A stretch of DNA of 63,411 bases from Rhypophila decipiens (lineage: Eukaryota; Ascomycota; Sordariomycetes; Sordariales; Naviculisporaceae). The position numbers and the translations under genes are program-made. Where the stretch lies: assembly GCA_033297075.1 (NCBI GenBank), contig MU858252.1, positions 1-63,411 on the forward strand. Reading direction: 5' to 3'. Shown piece after piece: positions 7,081 to 23,335 of this stretch. How positions within the stretch are numbered: position 1 is the first letter of the stretch; each line of letters opens with the position of its first letter. The notes under the pieces were generated by a model. It searched no databases. It had not been told where the DNA came from and saw nothing but the letters and a program-made list of their open reading frames with translations.

Positions 7081-10000
7081 TCAACACCGTGAATGTCGAC
7101 TTCCCCCGCTAGCAGCCGACCGGAAACTCCCGACGCTGCCTTGTCTCCGTAGACCTGACCGAAAACTCCCCACACTGTCTTCTCTCCGTAGACCGTGGCT
7201 CTTGGCGGGTTGTTTGCTATTTTCTCTTCCAAAAGAAACCGCGTCATAGGAGAAGTACTCTTCCAGTTTCTGTAGATCCAGTATCTTTAGAGTTTGTTCA
7301 CTTTGTTGTTGTTGTTGTTGTTGTTGTTCTCGTTCTTCTTGTTGTTGTTGTTCTTGTCGTTGTCGTTGTCGTCGTTGTTCTTGTTGCCGTTCTTGTTGTT
7401 CTTGTTCTTGTTGTTGTAGTTGTTGCTGCTCTAGTTTTTCCCGGAGAAATTGCTCTCGTTCCGCCCCTTTAAACCCATATTTACTCTTGTGAATGGCCAG
7501 AATTTGTTGGTAGTATTCTTCAAGTGTCTCCCGTCCTTCTGAAGGCATCGATGCGGTCGCGTCTTTCGTGGGGATGACACTTGGTTTACCCGAGAGAATA
7601 AAGTTAAACCCGTGATCGATCAGGAGCAAGTACTGGTGCAAGGTAAGCGGTTGGTTCCCATCCACTGGGTATATGACATGCAGCTCTTCCCTTAGGGCAA
7701 GCCATCTCATGGAAAAGTCGCTGTCGAGTAACCGGTCCATAATGGGTTCCATACCGGTTTTGATCAGTTGCCTTAGTTTTGAGTCATGCTTGGAATCAAG
7801 TTCCCAGACGTCGAAGCAGGAGCCAGCATGGTGGAAAAACTCGTCAGTGACGTAATGTAGGAGCCCTGGGTAGGCTTCTAGTTCCTGAGTACGGGTTGAG
7901 TAGTCTGAGTGGCGAGAAAGTCGCTTGACTGCGGCTGCGCAATCGGCTTCGTCCTTATTTCCTGTGTCATTGCGATTTAGGGGCCCTATACCCGCTAGCC
8001 AACACGCAACGTCGATCCCTTCGGGTCCAATTGGAGATTGATATGACTCCTCGTTGAAGGTATCGTCGACTTCGACAGTTATACCTTCTTCTAGCTCATC
8101 TCTCGGCGGCGAATTCTTCCCCATAGCGTTGAACCTCCGAGTTTTGCGCTTTGCTTCTTTGAGTCTGGCATGAACTAGAGCATCAAGCTCCGAAACGCCG
8201 AGATACTCGAGGCATGTGCTCATGATGGCAATCTCACCCATAATTAATTCGGAAATTATAGGGCGCGCGATGCGCAAGTCGGAAAGGTCTGCAAATCCGG
8301 TGCTGGACCTGAAATACTCGCTCACAGTCTCGTGGATTACTCGGATTATCCTTGTCTCGCCTGGATTCATCATAAACGACCCAGCCGCGGCGAACTGAGA
8401 AACCGACCTCGCCCTGGGATCATTCTCTGGCTCTTCCGTGTCAACCGCAACTTCTAGTAGTCCTCTAGAAAGTGACCGGACTTTTCGCTCCAATTGGTCG
8501 TAAGTGGTGGTGAACTCATCCGACTCTTGGCATTCTTTCAATGACTTCGGGGCGGTGGTTGTGCCGATAAATGCCATCAGGTCGTGCCATTCTCGAAGCT
8601 GGAGGGGACGGGAAGCCAGGATAGCCCATTGAAAAAGCCCCAATGTCACTAGCTTTGTCTCTTGAGGCACAGTTGTGATGAGATTCTCGTAAAGTTGCTG
8701 AAGCTTGCCAGGGAGGCAATCGAGATGACGCAGGAGTTCGCGCAGACTTTGGCCTTGCTGCCAACGCTCTATAATACCATCCACAACCAGCACCACCCAC
8801 AGAAACACTCCGCGGGCTTTATTACAGATAGCGTCCCGGAGCTGAGACCGTTCTGATTTCACAGCCGTGATCCCCAGTGCCAGTCTCTGCTCGACATATC
8901 GGCCGATGTCGCTCCGGTTCCACTGGTTCATGTCTAGCTGCCTCGGCGTTTTTCCCACTTTCAGCAACGGGAAGTTCCGGTTGCTTATCAAGATATTCAA
9001 ATTGACGTTGGACTTGGCAGCCCGGAGACCGGTAGCCCCAAGGAAGAAGGACAGTGCCGTCCGTTCAGAACCCGAACACTCATCCAACGCATCAATGAAT
9101 ATCAGGGTTCTCTCAGCAGAACGCTGGCGTGACGGTTTCATCAAGAAAGACTGAAGGGTGCTCTCTAGTTGTTCCACAGAATAAAAGATATCCTCCTTTT
9201 CGTCCGCTCTCGGTACTTGGTTGAGGATACTGCTGCTCCAGCGCAAGAACCTCTTGGACGCTTTGGATAAATGTTCTCGGTCCTGCGGCAAGAGTTGGTA
9301 AAGCAAAGACCGAAGAAGTCCTTCCTTGGACTTCTCAAGCGCTCCACCATTTTCATGAAAGAAATATGCTGCAATGCAGTAACCCGATCCTGCATACTTC
9401 TGGAGTGCCTGGCTATAAGCCTCTTTGACTAAGACTGACTTTCCAGATCCGGGGCTCCCTGAGATCTGGAGCAGTCCGTGATCGGATTGTTGTGTATGAC
9501 CCTTTATCCAATGGATGTAGGCCGGGTCGTTAAACAGCCAGTCACATGTTCCGTCCGCTGGAGTGGTCACCATTCTCCTCCGCGAGTTCATGTTGGGGTA
9601 CCACAAACTCGTCAAGAGAGCCTTCTCAGCCTCGTTAAATGGGACTTTGTCTATTCCCCAGAGGTCAAGAGAGTTCACACTAATCGGCATGCTGCCCATC
9701 ACCGAGGGCGGGTGGTTGTTAACTGAAGATGTGATACTGGGAGGCTGTACTGATGCAGGCAACCGCATTGGAGGGCCGACATGCTTTTCCATCGTCTGGT
9801 AGATGGAACGCAGCTCGCTAGATACCTGCCGGTAACCTGGGTCATCAGCGCCGTAAAATCGGCACATCTCACGATGGTTCGCTTGAATGGTCTCGGCGTG
9901 TTCTCGATGATCGCCCAACGAAGATGAGTAAGCCGGCACCACTTTACTCCCCAGCGCTCCAATACTTAGGCCGGTCAACCCGAGACCCTCTTGGAAGGTC

Positions 10001-10898
10001 TTAACACGAAAACCATGTTTGAGCCAGAGGCCCGAAAAGGATTCCTGGGCCCGTTCCAAATCGGTCGTCTTCAAGCCCAGGGCATGCAGCATAGCTGGAT
10101 TCGTCTCTACACCGAAGAAGTTGACAAAGGTTCTGGCCCAATCACCTGCTGCAGCAAATTCTGGACTCCCTCTGTGGGGCGTGCCCAGGAACACCACTCC
10201 TGCTGTCGATTCCACAATCCGGGCATGTTGAGGCTCCGTCGAGGTTGAAGATCGTGACAGCATCTGCAGCAAGCACAGGTGTCAGTGACTGGTAAAGATG
10301 GCGAGTCCTGGAACATGCTTACCTCTTTGACCACAATACCACCAAGACTATGGGCCACGAAAATGACCTGCTGCGGCTTGCCGGCAGGGCCAACACAACC
10401 CTCCGTCTCGCGTGACAAGGCGAATAAGAGATCCTTGGCATGAGAATAAATACTGTTCTTGTTTGTCGAAGCCGCTCCATAGTTGGTTATCTTGGTATCA
10501 TACCCAAACACGAGTACTCGTGCACGTGGACAGGCTTGCGGAAGCAAGTCGGCAGGCCAAAATACGCCAACCTTGCTCCCCGAGGCAGTCGCGATCGACA
10601 CATTCGTCGTGTTTCGAGAAGACGCGGCCAAGGAAGGTATTGCTGCCTGTTGAGAACTCTCTTGATTGACCCTGTTGCCATCGATGCCACCTTGTCCAAA
10701 CCCCAACGACTTTCGCTTGAGTTTCTTGGATATCCAAGACAACGGCCCACTTTTTGCCTTCTTCTCTTCCAACGAGTTTCCAGACTCTGACACCGATTGA
10801 TGTTGACGAGGGCTTTTAGGGACCTTTCCTTTGGTCCAGGTTCCTCGCGGATGACCTTGGAGTCCGTGAACGAGGACAATGCTGTTGCCAAGAGTCAA
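7081..10898 (-). CDS. NLR-like protein: alpha/beta-hydrolase (SesB/DUF676-type) + NACHT, polyQ C-terminus
   Basis: Two exons, 10898-10323 and 10263-7081 (59-bp GTAAGC...CTGCAG intron, phase 0), give 1252 aa. N-terminus: serine-hydrolase fold with LVHGLQGHPRGTW near the start, nucleophile in AHSLGG (Ser about 184), FLGTPHRGS and a catalytic-His candidate in NHREMCRF (about 322). This domain is used as a predicted lipase-like effector (SesB type) in fungal NLRs. Centre: NACHT NTPase with Walker A GSPGSGKS (about 461-468) and a Walker B-like LIFIDALDECSG. No WD40, ankyrin or TPR repeats follow; the C-terminus is a Gln/Glu/Arg-rich predicted coiled coil ending in two copies of an R-R-x-x-S-V-G-S-F-R-S motif. 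Likely a nucleotide-gated trigger of a non-self or xenobiotic response (inference from family). Neighbour ankyrin gene is on the same strand. Confidence 0.85.
7291..7440 (-). repeat. CAA/CAG-rich trinucleotide tract encoding polyQ
   Basis: On the plus strand this is an impure TTG/TTC/GTC triplet tract that includes a pure TTG run around 7302-7327. On the coding strand it reads Q-rich with interspersed E and R. It lies inside the NACHT gene C-terminus and should be length-variable between strains. Confidence 0.85.
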
Positions 10899-11672: not shown

Positions 11673-12773
11673 TCAAGGATAAACATCCCGATCCAACGGA
11701 ACAGGATCAAAGATATACCCAATCCGGTTATCAAGCGTGGTATTCCTCCCGTCCGGCAGCACAGGTCCAAACTTGGGGTGAACCAACACGCCCGGTTCGA
11801 ACGGGTCAACCTTGGCTTTGTCCATCCCCTCCAAGAGCAGCTCGAAATTGACACATTCGTGCGCGATTGTCCGGTTTCCTCCCGGCAGGATGCTGTTGTC
11901 GAACCAGATCATTGTCAGGGGGGTTTCGTCTGCTTTGCACATTATTGCTTCTGTGAGCATTTGGAGGCAGTGCACTTTTTGTGATGACGCCTTGTTAGCT
12001 TTGGGGACTGGGGAGAATACATGTAAAGGGGGAAGGGAAGGAAGAATCGTACGGCTGTGTTCGGTTTGTAGTTTTCTTTCGAAGTCAGTCATGTGGGGGT
12101 AGTACCGCTCTTGAAAGTGCGCTTGGTGGAGGCGTTTCTGTCATCGTGTTAGCTCCTAACCAGCCTTCCTTGGAAAAGATTTAGAAGGGGACGGATGATG
12201 TGAAAAGCATACAATGCAATGCAACTGGTGAACCCAGGCATAGTTGGCGAGGTAATTCCCATTCTCGAGCCGAATGCCCGTCTTCTCGCGGCCAAGCTTC
12301 CTCATGTACTCCGCGGGAACCTGGGCATAAAAGTACTGCATCAAGTTGGACCATCGCTTGTCGAGCTCGTCGCTCGGCTGGCCGACGAGCTGGTAATCTT
12401 TGGATGTTTCGGTCATTTTGAAGATTATGGGCTCGTAGTTGATGTACTCCCTGATTGGACCTAATAGTGCCGCTGTAAGCCAAGGGATTTAGAGAGCTGA
12501 TTGGGATGGACATGGCATACTGTCGATAACGTTGGCCCCGTGTTTCATTTCTCGTTTCCACCATGCTGATGTAGCGGATATCAAGGCCAGTGAGTATATC
12601 ACGAGGACCGTGAGACCTCCGAGGGCGAGGTATAGCTTCTTCCTTGGAGACGGTTTTGGTCGTTGAAATGCCGGGTGCTCGCCATCGTAGAGGAAGCCAT
12701 CGGACGAGCTTGCTGACCGGTCTGACTCGATGGGCGAGTACTCTGCCTCGGTCTTCTTTTCGAAAACGCCCAT
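11673..12773 (-). CDS. UstYa-family (DUF3328) membrane oxidase
   Basis: Four exons, 12773-12521, 12472-12213, 12137-12053 and 11974-11673, with introns of 48, 75 and 78 bp; phases agree and give 299 aa. A short cytosolic N-terminus ends in PRKK, followed by one transmembrane helix (about residues 47-68). The lumenal domain has the family hallmarks PIREYINYEPIIF, then HQLHC (H166, H169, C170), the KRLHQAHFQERYYPH segment, and a second motif HSLHC (H198, H201, C202) made only by the splice at 12053/11974. Paired HxxHC motifs are the proposed copper-binding site of UstYa enzymes, which oxidise and cyclise Kex2-processed fungal RiPP cores in the secretory pathway. It is transcribed away from the precursor gene at 13660. 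I chose the start at 12773 because it directly precedes a typical UstYa N-terminus; an in-frame ATG at 12830 would add 19 residues. Confidence 0.88.
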
Positions 12774-13659
12774 GATGCAGGGTTGAGTGAAGTTATGAGG
12801 AAAAAGTTCGGGAAATGGTGAGAATGTCAACCAGCAAAGTCAAAGAGAACAAAGCCTTAGAGGCAGAGATAGAAGTTAAGGTCTTGGAAGGGGGAACTGG
12901 CCAAGATACGGACTGATGGCAAAGAAAAAAACACATCCAAAGATCTCGATATAAGTGAGAGGAACTAGTCTTGATCACAAACTCTGATTAAGCGCTCACT
13001 GTGAGGTGGCAAGGGTTCGTAATGCTCCGGACCCACGCGGCCGCTCGCTGACTGCAACATCGAACCCCGGGAGGAAAGCTTATCCTTACTCGTAGTCTCG
13101 TATCTCCCTAATCAAAACTACAGATGTTATCGTCCTTCCTAAAACATCACGATGATCGTTCTACCCCGCAAGCTTACCTGCTCCATGTTTGATACTTCCA
13201 AGGATTCTGATTCGTCCGCAAGTGGCGACTATTCACCGCATCTTTGAAGGATCATGCCGTTTCTCGTAGGAGATGGGATATGTTGACGTAGTTTGTAGAA
13301 CGCCGACGGCGAGTAAGATGCGGGGCTGGCTGTTTACGTGATCGAGATAATGACCTCGACCCTGGACTCGGATGTTTCGGGTACAGGCGCTCGCGAGTTT
13401 TGACTCCGGAACGGGAAGGTCGGTGAAAGTGTGTAACGTTGTTGTCGATGTTGATCGGTTGATCTGATCGGTCGATTGCGTTTCTCTCCGAAGAGGAGGC
13501 AAATGGAATTTCCTGGATATGAGCGTTTATATCCCGTGTTATCTGGCTCTCTGTCAGTCTGTCAGTCTGTCTCCGACGATAGAAATTTGGCGAAACCGAC
13601 CATTCTCTCGATACTTGAACAGCTAAATCACACAAAAGTTAGCATTCAGAAAACCCAAG
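12774..13659. promoter_or_regulatory. divergent promoter region, UstYa oxidase / RiPP precursor
   Basis: 886 bp between two divergent genes that should be co-expressed. No convincing ORF. It has several CGG/CCG half-sites (for example near 13033, 13366 and 13404) but no copy of the CGGATCATCCG site found upstream of the regulator at 19994 and 20089. Position is the main evidence. Confidence 0.5.
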
Positions 13660-14271
13660 ATGCAGCTCCTCAGGAATCTCGCCATCGTGGCCCCGTTGAT
13701 CCTGGCCTTTGTCAACGCTGCCCCAACCGCCGGCGACGTTGGTATGTCATTCTTTCTTTTCTCATTATCTTCATCACTAACAAACTCTACAGCAAAGAAA
13801 GACGCAGCCCCCAAAGACGCCGACGCAATCTGGCTGTGGAAGAAGGATGCTGATGCCGTCCCCAGCGACGCAGATGCAATCTGGCTCTGGAAGAAAGACA
13901 GCACCACCGGAAAGACCCGTCTCGCCAAAGACGCAGATGCCATCTGGCTCTGGAAGAAGGACGCCGTCATTGGCAAGCTCCAACGTGATGCTGCCGTTGA
14001 TGCAGATACTATCTGGCTCTGGAAGAAGGACGCCGACGCACTGGCTAAGGACTCTGATGCCATTTGGCTGTGGAAGAAGGACACCGAGGCGTTGGCCAAA
14101 GATGCCGATGCCATTTGGCTTTGGAAGAAGCGTGAGGTGACGGATAAGATCGTGAGGGCTCCTACCGCAGCTGATGCGGATGCCATTTGGCTTTGGAAGA
14201 AAGATGCTGTCGAGGCGGAGAAGAGAGATGGCAAGGTCGTTAGAGATGCTGATGATATTTGGTTGTGGTAA
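13660..14271 (+). CDS. Secreted multi-core peptide precursor (candidate Kex2-processed RiPP, D-x-D-x-IWLW-KK repeats)
   Basis: Exon 1 (13660-13741) encodes a signal peptide, cleaved probably after FVNA (residue 20). A 51-bp intron (13742-13792, GTATGT...CTACAG) is followed by exon 2 (13793-14271); product 186 aa. The mature part is eight repeats D-(A/S)-D-(A/T/D)-I-W-L-W, the first seven followed by Lys-Lys and the last ending at the stop codon. Spacers of 7, 11, 13, 7, 7, 14 and 14 residues vary freely. A further KK sits just after the leader. KK is a permitted Kex2 site, and the D-A dipeptides before the core resemble substrates of Ste13-type dipeptidyl aminopeptidase, so the final unit could be IWLW or DADAIWLW. 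The intron length is divisible by three and open, so unspliced RNA would also be read through. With the adjacent UstYa gene this fits a dikaritin-type RiPP; a pheromone-like peptide is the alternative. Cores contain no Tyr or Cys. Confidence 0.88.
   Translation: MQLLRNLAIVAPLILAFVNAAPTAGDVGMSFFLFSLSSSLTNSTAKKDAAPKDADAIWLWKKDADAVPSDADAIWLWKKDSTTGKTRLAKDADAIWLWKKDAVIGKLQRDAAVDADTIWLWKKDADALAKDSDAIWLWKKDTEALAKDADAIWLWKKREVTDKIVRAPTAADADAIWLWKKDAVEAEKRDGKVVRDADDIWLW
13816..14271 (+). repeat. eight coding repeats of the D-x-D-x-IWLW core
   Basis: Units start at 13816, 13867, 13930, 13999, 14050, 14101, 14173 and 14245; each is 30 bp except the last (24 bp plus stop). Ile is ATC or ATT, Leu is CTG, CTC, CTT or TTG, Asp is GAC or GAT and Ala takes several codons, yet IWLW is invariant. 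Unit 4 has Thr and unit 8 Asp in the fourth position, unit 5 Ser in the second. Confidence 0.95.
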
Positions 14272-14479: not shown

Positions 14480-14579
14480 GGTTGTGTAGTGTAGTGGTTA
14501 TCACTCTGGATTTTGATGAGGAAATCCAATTTCGAGTCATTCTCTTCCAGTAACCCCGGTTCGAACCCGGGCACGACCT
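14480..14579 (+). tRNA. tRNA-Gln(UUG) with intron
   Basis: The acceptor stem GGTTGTG pairs with CACGACC at 14572-14578 (one G-T pair), T at 14579 is the discriminator, and the T arm is CCCGG-TTCGAAC-CCGGG. The anticodon stem CTGGA/TCCAG encloses TTTTGA, giving anticodon TTG, with an intron of about 28 nt directly after position 37, the canonical place. The D arm includes TAGTGTAGTGGTTATCA. Confidence 0.9.
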
Positions 14580-14772: not shown

Positions 14773-14843
14773 TCGGGTATGGTGTAGCGGTAACATCAGT
14801 GACTCTCACTCACTAGCCCGGGGTTCGACTCCCCGTATCCGAG
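14773..14843 (+). tRNA. tRNA-Glu(CUC)
   Basis: The acceptor stem TCGGGTA pairs with TATCCGA (14836-14842), with G14843 as discriminator. The anticodon stem AGTGA/TCACT holds loop CTCTCAC, anticodon CTC. The T arm is CGGGG-TTCGACT-CCCCG. No intron. Confidence 0.9.
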
Positions 14844-15016: not shown

Positions 15017-16219
15017 TCAATCCTCCGAATGCTTCCTTCCATCGCCATTATTAACCTTTCTAGTCGCACCTCCATCCTCTGTTACAACCTTGGCACCATT
15101 CCCATTCCCATTCCCAACAGTCTCCAAGTTCCCGTTCCCACCATCCCAAAGCCCATTCTCATTCACCCTCGCGCCCTTAAACTCCCACCAAGCATCCCTC
15201 TTCCTCCGAATGGTATCAACAAACCCCTTCTCCAGCACGGCATTCCAATCCAGCCCCGGAATCCACCAAACAAGCCAATCCAACCCGCCATTCAAGATCC
15301 CCGCCTCAATCCCATGCCCCAAATGCGGTCTTATCTCCCATTCCCCCCTCCTAACAGCATTATCCACCTTTTGAACAATCTCCCGTCCAAAATCATCCCA
15401 GTTCGGTGCATTCCCCGGTACGCCTTTGCTGTTCCCCTGACTTTTGACTTCATGCGGTATGACACAAATACAATCAATGTGCTTCGTCTGGGGGTTTAAC
15501 TTGAGTTCTCGGCCTAGACCGACTGAGAAGCCGTGGTTAAAGGCCTTGGTAGCGCTGTACATTACTAGCCAGGGGCAGCCGACTTTTCCTGCGCTGGAGA
15601 AGTTGATGATTAGGGCTTTGGGATTCTTGGCGAGGGAGGGAAGTATAAGACAGGTTAGTCGGCTCATGAAGCGCGCGTTCTGGTCGATTACGCTGTCGAT
15701 ATCGCGGGTTGTCATGTCTTTGACTTCGAGAAAGTTGGGTTCCCTTATTGCGTTGCCTCCGACGTTGTTGACCAGGATTGAGACGTCCAGATGGGAGAGC
15801 GAATTGACTAGGGAGGTGAGGTCGTCGTCTGTGGCTGTTCGTGCGTCTAGGACTCGGATCTCGATTTGAGGCGGCGGCGTGGACTTGACTTGTTTACGTG
15901 GTGGATGGGATTGTCCGTATTTGAGGAGATGGTCTTTTGCTTCTGCCAGTTCGACTGGCAGGTGGCCGTGGAGAATCACACCGAACCCTTGGAGGATGAG
16001 TTCCTGGGCGATGCCGAGACCTATTCCCGCTGACGAGCCGGTTATGAGCGCCCATGTGGTCTTTTCGTCCTCGGTATCGTCACGGGGTTGTGACGTCCTC
16101 TTGTACGAGGACAACGGTTTGGCGGGCTTGACAAAGTGGAAGGTGAGGAATTGGTAGGCGTTCTTGGCAAAGTTGAGGGTCGCGAGGGCGCCAATGACGG
16201 CGAAAAGTTGCATCATCAT
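15017..16219 (-). CDS. Short-chain dehydrogenase/reductase, membrane-anchored, KAR/17beta-HSD12-like
   Basis: Intronless 400-aa ORF. A hydrophobic N-terminal segment (about residues 3-20) can anchor it in the ER. The classical SDR signature follows: TGSSAGIGLGIA (NADP-binding, about 60-71), NNVGG (about 152), INFSSAG with the catalytic Ser, and YSATK with catalytic Tyr and Lys. The layout matches 3-ketoacyl-CoA reductase / 17beta-HSD12-type SDRs, which are usually about 330-350 aa. The extra length is a Gly/Asn-rich low-complexity tail (GNGNGNGAK). In this locus it could reduce an oxidised peptide side chain, but a lipid role is equally possible. The nearest gene on the same strand is the Zn2Cys6 regulator at 17026. 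Confidence 0.85.
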   Translation of the reverse strand: MMMQLFAVIGALATLNFAKNAYQFLTFHFVKPAKPLSSYKRTSQPRDDTEDEKTTWALITGSSAGIGLGIAQELILQGFGVILHGHLPVELAEAKDHLLKYGQSHPPRKQVKSTPPPQIEIRVLDARTATDDDLTSLVNSLSHLDVSILVNNVGGNAIREPNFLEVKDMTTRDIDSVIDQNARFMSRLTCLILPSLAKNPKALIINFSSAGKVGCPWLVMYSATKAFNHGFSVGLGRELKLNPQTKHIDCICVIPHEVKSQGNSKGVPGNAPNWDDFGREIVQKVDNAVRRGEWEIRPHLGHGIEAGILNGGLDWLVWWIPGLDWNAVLEKGFVDTIRRKRDAWWEFKGARVNENGLWDGGNGNLETVGNGNGNGAKVVTEDGGATRKVNNGDGRKHSED

Positions 16220-22390: not shown

Positions 22391-23335
22391 ATGGCCTCCA
22401 CATCGACTAGACCTGCACGAACTCCCTCGCCAACAGAGTACACCACGTCCAAGATCTTCACCTTGAAATGGAACCACTCCTACGACGATCCCGACCCGCA
22501 AGCTCCACAGCACCAAGCCCGCAACGTGAGGTTCGACGCCGACGTTATCCATGACCGGGATAACCTCAAAGTCATTCTTCATGACACGTTCGGTGTCACC
22601 GTCGGGACCGACTACATCGTCAGGCGCAAGCGGAATTTTCTTGGCATCAAACAGCCTTATACCGCTGAACCCGTTGTTCAAGCCATCAACGCCGATGCAC
22701 GTGGCTTGGGCAACCAAGACCTCTTTGTCTTTTATTATAGTGGTTATGGGGAGCATGATAACCGGCAGGGGCTGGCCTTTGCCAAGTAAGTAGTAGCACA
22801 TCACCACAAAAAGAACACAGAACATTCCTTTGGTGTACAATAAATGGCTTAAACCGAGCATTACGAATACTGATCAAATGATGTTAGCAACAAACCGGGA
22901 CGCTTTATCCTCGCCAGCCCAATCCTGGCCGCCCTGCGCGCTCTGCCATGCGACGTCCTAGTCATCCTCGATTGCTGCAACGCAGTAAATACCTCGCTTC
23001 CGCCACCCACCGGTCCAAGCAATAAAAGGATGGTACGTATCTATGAAGAAGATAAAAAAAGACAAAGCTGATATTATGGTAATTAGATGATCCTCGGCGC
23101 GTCTCTGTCAACCGACCTCACCACGGCCGACTCGACGCGAACAATGACCAACCGGCTCAGAAAGGTTCTCAGGACATGGGCCACGACGAATAACAACGAG
23201 TTGAGGATTGCCGAGCTCGGTCGCTTAATCAACCGTAGCACTGCTGAACTTCAACGAAGTGGGGATACTTATGTCCGGGATGTTGTCATTCAGGATTATA
23301 CCGGGCGTGGAGATATTACACTCGGAAGAGGCTAG
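22391..23335 (+). CDS. Caspase-like (C14-fold) protein with substituted catalytic His
   Basis: Exons 22391-22785, 22888-23032 and 23087-23335 give 262 aa. Core motifs of the caspase/metacaspase p20 domain are visible: KVILHDTFGV (where metacaspases have L..LGF), LFVFYYSGYGEHD (normally YYSGHG, with the catalytic His) and VLVILDCCNA (the nucleophile Cys environment DCC). The His is replaced by Tyr, while the Cys-bearing motif is kept. The protein is shorter than type I metacaspases and has no Pro/Gln-rich prodomain. It may be an inactive pseudo-protease, or use another base. Such orphan caspase-like domains occur as effector or partner proteins in fungal NLR systems, and an NLR lies 11.5 kb upstream. 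Confidence 0.75.

Follow-up and report, generated by a model that had tools for sequence, protein, structure and literature searches.

Whether a short fungal gene that encodes little besides repeated IWLW units is a RiPP precursor, and how a core of this kind might be modified, is the question raised by this locus. It lies in a 63,411-nucleotide stretch of DNA from Rhypophila decipiens (Sordariales, Naviculisporaceae; contig MU858252.1), referred to here as the window. A sequence-only reading had described a 186-aa protein with eight D-x-D-x-IWLW units, the first seven followed by Lys-Lys, and translation confirmed this description. The same reading had proposed the protein as a new fungal RiPP precursor. 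That proposal is partly supported, by a signal-like N-terminus, a multicore Kex2-repeat design, an adjoining UstYa/DUF3328 gene (12773-11673, minus strand) that the earlier reading had not placed and the presence of both proteins in other fungi; the product and its crosslink stay putative.

The precursor and its relatives

The precursor gene occupies positions 13660..14271 of the plus strand and consists of two exons, 13660-13741 and 13793-14271, separated by a 51-nt intron (13742-13792, GTATGT...CAG). The intron is in frame; the unspliced ORF has 203 codons and the spliced product 186 aa. Splicing is backed by sequence comparison with the relative P0055, in which PTAGDVAK matches the window protein across the exon junction. 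The N-terminus, MQLLRNLAIVAPLILAFVNA (13660..13719, plus strand), resembles a signal peptide in its hydrophobicity: of all 11-residue segments in the protein, the most hydrophobic lies here, with a mean Kyte-Doolittle value of 2.87 at residue 8. The repeat region (13816..14268, plus strand) extends from the first DADAIWLW to the last unit. IWLW is preceded by DADA in five units and by DADT, DSDA and DADD in the other three. Lys-Lys directly follows IWLW in units 1-7, and the stop codon directly follows it in unit 8, which leaves the last core at the C-terminus. The precursor has neither Tyr nor Cys, and the repeats also lack Phe. On the opposite strand, an open frame of 187 aa overlaps the repeats (13623-14186, minus strand) and probably arises as a by-product of the repeat codons. 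No database copy of the R. decipiens precursor was returned by two protein searches, and the gene seems to be unannotated in this species. No second copy was found in its own genome.

The eight-unit array is neither a chance arrangement nor a recent duplication. When IWLWKK was searched as an 18-base degenerate pattern in the 45.7-Mb genome, all 7 matches fell within the precursor gene, and the reversed-pattern control gave 0 matches. Silent codon variation is found among the eight copies for Asp (GAC/GAT), Ile (ATC/ATT), Leu (CTG/CTC/CTT/TTG) and Lys (AAG/AAA), with IWLW constant throughout. A single array was reported by Tandem Repeats Finder (13999-14130), with a 51-base unit, 2.6 copies and 79% matches. 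Since codons vary between copies while the core residues are constant, the core protein sequence is being kept while the DNA drifts.

The two protein searches yielded 12 relatives, 11 of them assigned to Sordariomycetes plus P0004. They come from Thyridium curvatum, Xylariaceae FL1272 and FL0255, Xylaria scruposa, Xylaria CBS 124048, Camillea tinctor, three Biscogniauxia entries, Xylariomycetidae sp. FL0641 (P0053) and Naviculisporaceae sp. PSN 640 (P0055). Taxonomy places Thyridium, Biscogniauxia, Xylaria, Camillea and FL0641 in Sordariomycetes, and the remaining names indicate Xylariaceae or Naviculisporaceae. P0005 and P0006 (Zasmidium cellare) were excluded from the family, as they matched weakly (E 0.27 and 6.3) and have other cores; they belong to another family that resembles Kex2-repeat proteins and combines LWKK units with spacers of EAEA/DADA type. 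The database listing gives P0056 a PF28562 label that is absent from the Pfam scan. A scan of viral-contig DNA gave 65 pattern matches, none of them a precursor relative.

A WLW search collected 53 units from the 13 proteins (window plus 12), so that WLW in 53/53 units is true by construction. Fair measures of conservation are the preceding Ile or Val, the D-x-D, the C-terminal position and a core-free count of D-x-D. The residue before WLW is Ile in 37 units and Val in 16, which accounts for 53/53; X. scruposa has the IWLW form. Both Asp residues of D-x-D are present in 51/53 units, and both exceptions are in P0055. Because the units had been picked by WLW, D-x-D was also counted independently: 51/58 D-x-D sites run into [IV]WLW, and 5 of the remaining 7 are overlapping registers. 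The C-terminus is WLW in 13/13 proteins. Among non-terminal units Lys comes next in 38/40, with KK or KR directly after the core in 32/40; six other units have Lys-x ahead of the dibasic pair and would need extra trimming. Copy number varies from 3 to 8 units per protein, and the spacers drift as well.

By Kyte-Doolittle hydrophobicity the most hydrophobic 11-residue stretch is N-terminal in 13/13 proteins, the peak of P0003 falling inside its N-terminal extension. Tyr is absent from 12/13 family proteins, and the other has a single one in an N-terminal extension. Trp outside WLW is confined to one degenerate unit in P0002, one residue in the P0003 extension and four residues in P0053, all within two copies of a second unit. 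In P0053 (residues 34-51 and 73-90) the VWLW core alternates with this second unit, GDEWKDEGGPSVIWPAKR, and two peptide types may come from one precursor. In P0055 the first two IWLW units are followed by NL and ET in place of a dibasic site, which reflects either decay or a wrong gene model.

The adjoining UstYa gene and its clade

The UstYa/DUF3328 oxidase gene (11673..12773, minus strand) encodes 295 aa in four exons (12773-12521, 12460-12213, 12137-12053 and 11974-11673). It is transcribed divergently from the precursor gene across 886 bases between both start codons (12774..13659). The gene model is identical to the public protein P0007 (QBC37DRAFT_379274). Two candidate acceptors exist for intron 1 (12472-12461), and the acceptor giving an exon start at 12460 reproduces P0007 exactly. 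The protein matches PF11807 (UstYa, formerly DUF3328) with E 3e-38 and 132 bits against a curated cut-off of 25, and it scored 94 bits in a six-frame genome search. It carries two HxxHC motifs, HQLHC and HSLHC, and a hydrophobic stretch close to the N-terminus as read by eye. Both motifs are present in 28/32 aligned UstYa proteins, the alignment (A2) covering 32 of 41 UstYa matches. NCBIfam assigned no family to the protein, and no solved structure was related to it by sequence at E up to 1.

Two tRNA genes (14480-14579 and 14773-14843) flank the precursor gene on the side away from UstYa. The first comes from Rfam and is absent from the ARAGORN list; at 100 bases it probably contains an intron. 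Past them Pfam identified a short-chain dehydrogenase (15017..16219, minus strand, PF00106), a Zn2Cys6 regulator and an MFS gene that begins about 6 kb beyond the precursor, all three being candidate cluster members only. No tyrosinase or methyltransferase was found among ten window ORFs scanned with Pfam. Elsewhere in the window, a large NPHP3_N/AAA_16 protein with a Gln-rich tail (7081-10263, minus strand) is a candidate fungal NLR or cell-death gene, as is an ORF that looks caspase-like by eye and has no Pfam match (22391-22789, plus strand).

Both partners occur in other genera. That D-x-D-x-IWLW-type repeats would be found with DUF3328 genes in other fungi was borne out for part of the 12 relatives: in 6/11 of those assigned to Sordariomycetes a related UstYa, 58-65% identical to the window protein, is on a contig of equal base count. 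Co-location is judged from equal contig base counts and locus numbers. The contigs are those of FL1272 (593282 bases, loci 474021/474023), X. scruposa (894332 bases, 445705/445704), B. mediterranea (115179 bases, 645331/645333), Xylaria CBS 124048 (858724 bases, 690496/690495), FL0255 (265514 bases) and FL0641 (142785 bases). Locus numbers are consecutive twice among these six. No UstYa partner could be placed for five of the assigned relatives (P0002, P0050, P0051, P0052 and P0055) or for P0004. Because the database lists cluster representatives only, these absent partners are mostly missing evidence; for Thyridium curvatum, however, no UstYa at all was listed at E 1e-30 or better.

The R. 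decipiens genome contains 67 exon-level UstYa matches by six-frame profile search. Several are grouped (contigs C3, C251 and C306), which hints at additional RiPP loci. Identity to the window UstYa is 32% over 138 residues for the best-scoring paralogue and up to 34% in shorter matches. A quick tree was built from 30/41 UstYa matches and eight of these paralogues; as its outgroup branches are long, only the tight inner clade was used. A single 23-row clade contains all seven precursor-linked UstYa proteins and none of the eight own-genome paralogues. For its other 16 members the relative lists give no precursor; among them are proteins from Thermothelomyces, Coniochaeta and Nemania, and two from Kalmusia (Pleosporales) and Karstenula. 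On the tree the label "precursor found" is scattered, with 5 changes, and 28/500 shuffles gave a number as low. Unannotated precursors, as in the window, or real losses would both fit this scatter.

A putative route to the product and its alternatives

The sequence evidence points with good probability to a minimal two-gene dikaritin-type RiPP locus with Kex2/Kex1 release and UstYa oxidation. We infer secretion, processing, oxidation and a crosslink at a particular site as follows. The precursor would enter the secretory pathway via its N-terminal signal. UstYa would oxidise each D-x-D-x-[IV]WLW unit, D-x-D being part of the recognition sequence. Kexin would cleave after Lys-Lys, a Kex1-like carboxypeptidase would strip the lysines, and aminopeptidases would trim the N-side. 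Each precursor would then give as many as eight molecules of the same small cyclic peptide for export. Such a route of secretion, Kex2 cleavage at dibasic sites (KR, RR or KK) and Kex1 trimming is described for dikaritin precursors (PMC9769878). In the R. decipiens genome one match was found for the kexin P-domain profile (1-58 of 86), two for DPPIV and 12 for S10 carboxypeptidase. All three are expected in any ascomycete.

Since the repeats contain neither Tyr nor Phe, any aromatic UstYa link must use Trp. UstYa would most likely join both Trp residues across the invariant Leu (i, i+2), with 2 H lost per core. This Trp-Trp link is favoured because W-L-W keeps its Leu and because YLY is linked i to i+2 in a bacterial aminopyruvatide, where an indole N-C bond forms in a WLY variant (PMC13192836, preprint). 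Taken by itself, and by analogy, the Trp-Trp link is proposed only tentatively. Several observations count against the scheme. Tyr, through which ustiloxin, phomopsin and asperipin are crosslinked, is absent from the precursor, and Trp was not enriched in repeats beside DUF3328 genes in the 2020 survey (PMC7329392). The unplaced UstYa partners, the 16 precursor-less rows of the clade, the first two cores of P0055 and the six Lys-x units also weigh against it. Furthermore, in many relatives Asp directly follows D-x-D; this is unlike a Ste13 signature and leaves N-side trimming unaccounted for. D-x-D may be an enzyme recognition sequence or part of the product; because it is almost as conserved as IWLW, the actual core may include it, as the octapeptide D-x-D-x-[IV]WLW, instead of being IWLW.

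The same RiPP logic would hold if UstYa coupled the indole of a Trp to C-beta of the Ile or Val at core position 1, as in the Tyr-Ile linkage of ustiloxin and phomopsin, or if it only desaturated or hydroxylated a residue. All 53 units have Ile (37) or Val (16) at position 1, which fits the need for a branched beta carbon. In asperipin-2a a DUF3328 enzyme links the Tyr phenol to the Phe beta carbon (PMC12186524), and UstYa homologues are required for desaturation in phomopsin biosynthesis (PMC10512285). Against a link to the beta carbon is the aminopyruvatide, whose YLY is crosslinked across Leu and whose WLY variant uses the indole nitrogen, although the enzyme is an unrelated P450 and the comparison is analogy only (PMC13192836). 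With position 1 restricted to Ile and Val, this chemistry is about as likely as the Trp-Trp link, and is held just as tentatively; the Trp-Trp link is favoured.

A second alternative departs from RiPP chemistry. The protein could be a Kex2-repeat precursor that frees a linear, unmodified IWLW or D-x-D-x-IWLW signal or pheromone, with UstYa coincidental or acting elsewhere. Alpha-pheromone Kex2-repeat precursors are built in this way, and 6/8 window units have Ala just before the core, like the X-A signature of Ste13 (PMC6339444). Nor is the pheromone role visibly filled, as no canonical alpha-pheromone core was found in the R. decipiens genome by exact, loose or 3-mismatch DNA patterns; the single 3-mismatch match is in a 24-residue open stretch, unlike a pheromone gene. 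However, a UstYa gene adjoins the precursor here and a related UstYa is on an equal-sized contig in six relatives, whereas pheromone-type repeat genes in the 2020 survey almost all, with three exceptions, have no DUF3328 gene nearby (PMC7329392). Moreover, Ala directly precedes [IV]WLW in only 21/53 family units, and the core has no Cys. We regard the linear peptide as unlikely.

Very unlikely is a structural or surface-active repeat protein of cell wall or repellent type left mostly intact. It would suit the signal-like N-terminus, the repeats and the hydrophobic units between charged spacers. Against it, the eight-residue unit and its usually dibasic exit are preserved although the spacers and the number of copies (3-8) differ between proteins, the last unit is at the exact C-terminus in 13/13 proteins and the window protein has no Cys.

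Known systems and the meaning of the locus

The dikaritin-type locus can be compared with several described systems. Five dikaritins are given in a 2022 review (PMC10512285), and the original five-gene definition, which also called for a tyrosinase, a methyltransferase, and a transporter or peptidase, later gave way to one based on the DUF3328 protein (PMC12048977). A Venturia study took as its criterion a DUF3328 gene near a signal-peptide repeat protein with kexin sites (PMC9632046). The locus has a signal-like N-terminus by Kyte-Doolittle, multiple cores with kexin sites and a close UstYa with two HxxHC motifs; Tyr in the core, which is usual and not formally defining, is absent (0 Tyr in the precursor). 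By its predicted architecture it comes within the working definition of a dikaritin.

Like the ustiloxin and phomopsin systems, it combines a signal-peptide-like N-terminus, short repeated cores, Kex2 sites and UstYa/DUF3328 proteins. Ustiloxin cores are four residues long, YAIG and YVIG (PMC7329392), unlike the Tyr-free [IV]WLW. One UstYa gene is seen here compared with two for ustiloxin and five for phomopsin (PMC7329392), and the tyrosinase and methyltransferase of those systems are absent among the ten window ORFs scanned. Asperipin-2a has a single DUF3328 protein in its pathway beside a Kex2-repeat precursor (PMC7329392), as seen here. In contrast, asperipin-2a is bicyclic via two linkages from internal Tyr side chains (PMC9233826), and the IWLW core has two Trp and no Tyr. 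In vitro activity has been achieved for the UstYa family with a dicopper site and oxygen, an example being the Tyr-O to Phe C-beta ether of asperipin-2a (PMC12186524). The bacterial aminopyruvatide biaryl RiPPs (YLY, WxY, YLW) share the aromatic-Leu-aromatic core motif (PMC13192836); they are made by a P450 enzyme, and no homology is claimed.

Alpha pheromone precursors of ascomycetes have the same Kex2/Kex1 layout, with X-A dipeptides in some units (PMC6339444). They differ in their Cys-containing core from the IWLW precursor, which has a UstYa neighbour and, in many relatives, D-x-D-D units. In the yeast alpha pheromone precursor the last copy is at the C-terminus, as it is here. The Sordariomycetes alpha-pheromone core follows a W-C...GQ.CW type pattern. 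The precursor does not fit a canonical alpha pheromone, since it has no Cys to form this core. Nor does the X-A or X-P expected by Ste13 stand before each core, Ala being found in 6/8 window and 21/53 family units.

The claim of newness has to be limited as regards the type of precursor. Among the titles listed by literature searches, which leave out most subscription papers and supplements, none concerned an IWLW or VWLW family or a UstYa-made Trp link. IWLW and WLW are absent from the main text of the Umemura 2020 survey, its supplementary tables being outside this comparison (PMC7329392). That survey counted 1758 Kex2-repeat proteins beside DUF3328 genes (PMC7329392). Tyr occurs in 65.6% and Trp in 20.5% of repeats beside DUF3328, compared with 38.2% and 24.5% without DUF3328 (PMC7329392). 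As Trp is not enriched in repeats beside DUF3328 genes, Trp alone is a poor mark of crosslinking, and it is the pairing with one UstYa clade that carries the dikaritin-type case. Type P-3 proteins of the survey also have Trp in the repeat and a DUF3328 gene nearby, but there W occurs with Pro and the hosts are Fonsecaea, Cladophialophora, Galerina, Psilocybe and Coprinellus (PMC7329392). Since the 2020 counts already include Kex2-repeat proteins with Trp next to DUF3328 genes, the IWLW locus is a variant of a known precursor type. It is real and conserved, ordinary in architecture and unusual in core.

The fungal UstYa crosslinks described so far in the cited accounts involve Tyr (PMC9233826, PMC12186524, PMC7329392). 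Here Sordariales and Xylariales retain a Tyr-free core with two Trp together with a single UstYa. With only a precursor and an enzyme as components, the locus offers a compact setting for asking if the copper-dependent DUF3328 fold oxidises indole. The apparent absence of the precursor gene from annotation suggests that such genes can be overlooked. The sequence conservation speaks for a genuine biological function. As the spacers drift but the core is the same in different orders, the product might act as a conserved signal and not as a toxin particular to one species. That an ancient sordariomycete peptide of this kind has been retained widely, with a dedicated copper-type UstYa clade joining two indoles across Leu, is a speculative proposal that we consider rather doubtful as a whole. 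The locus points to an undescribed natural peptide, whose precursor and modifying-enzyme gene are both kept by distant fungi.
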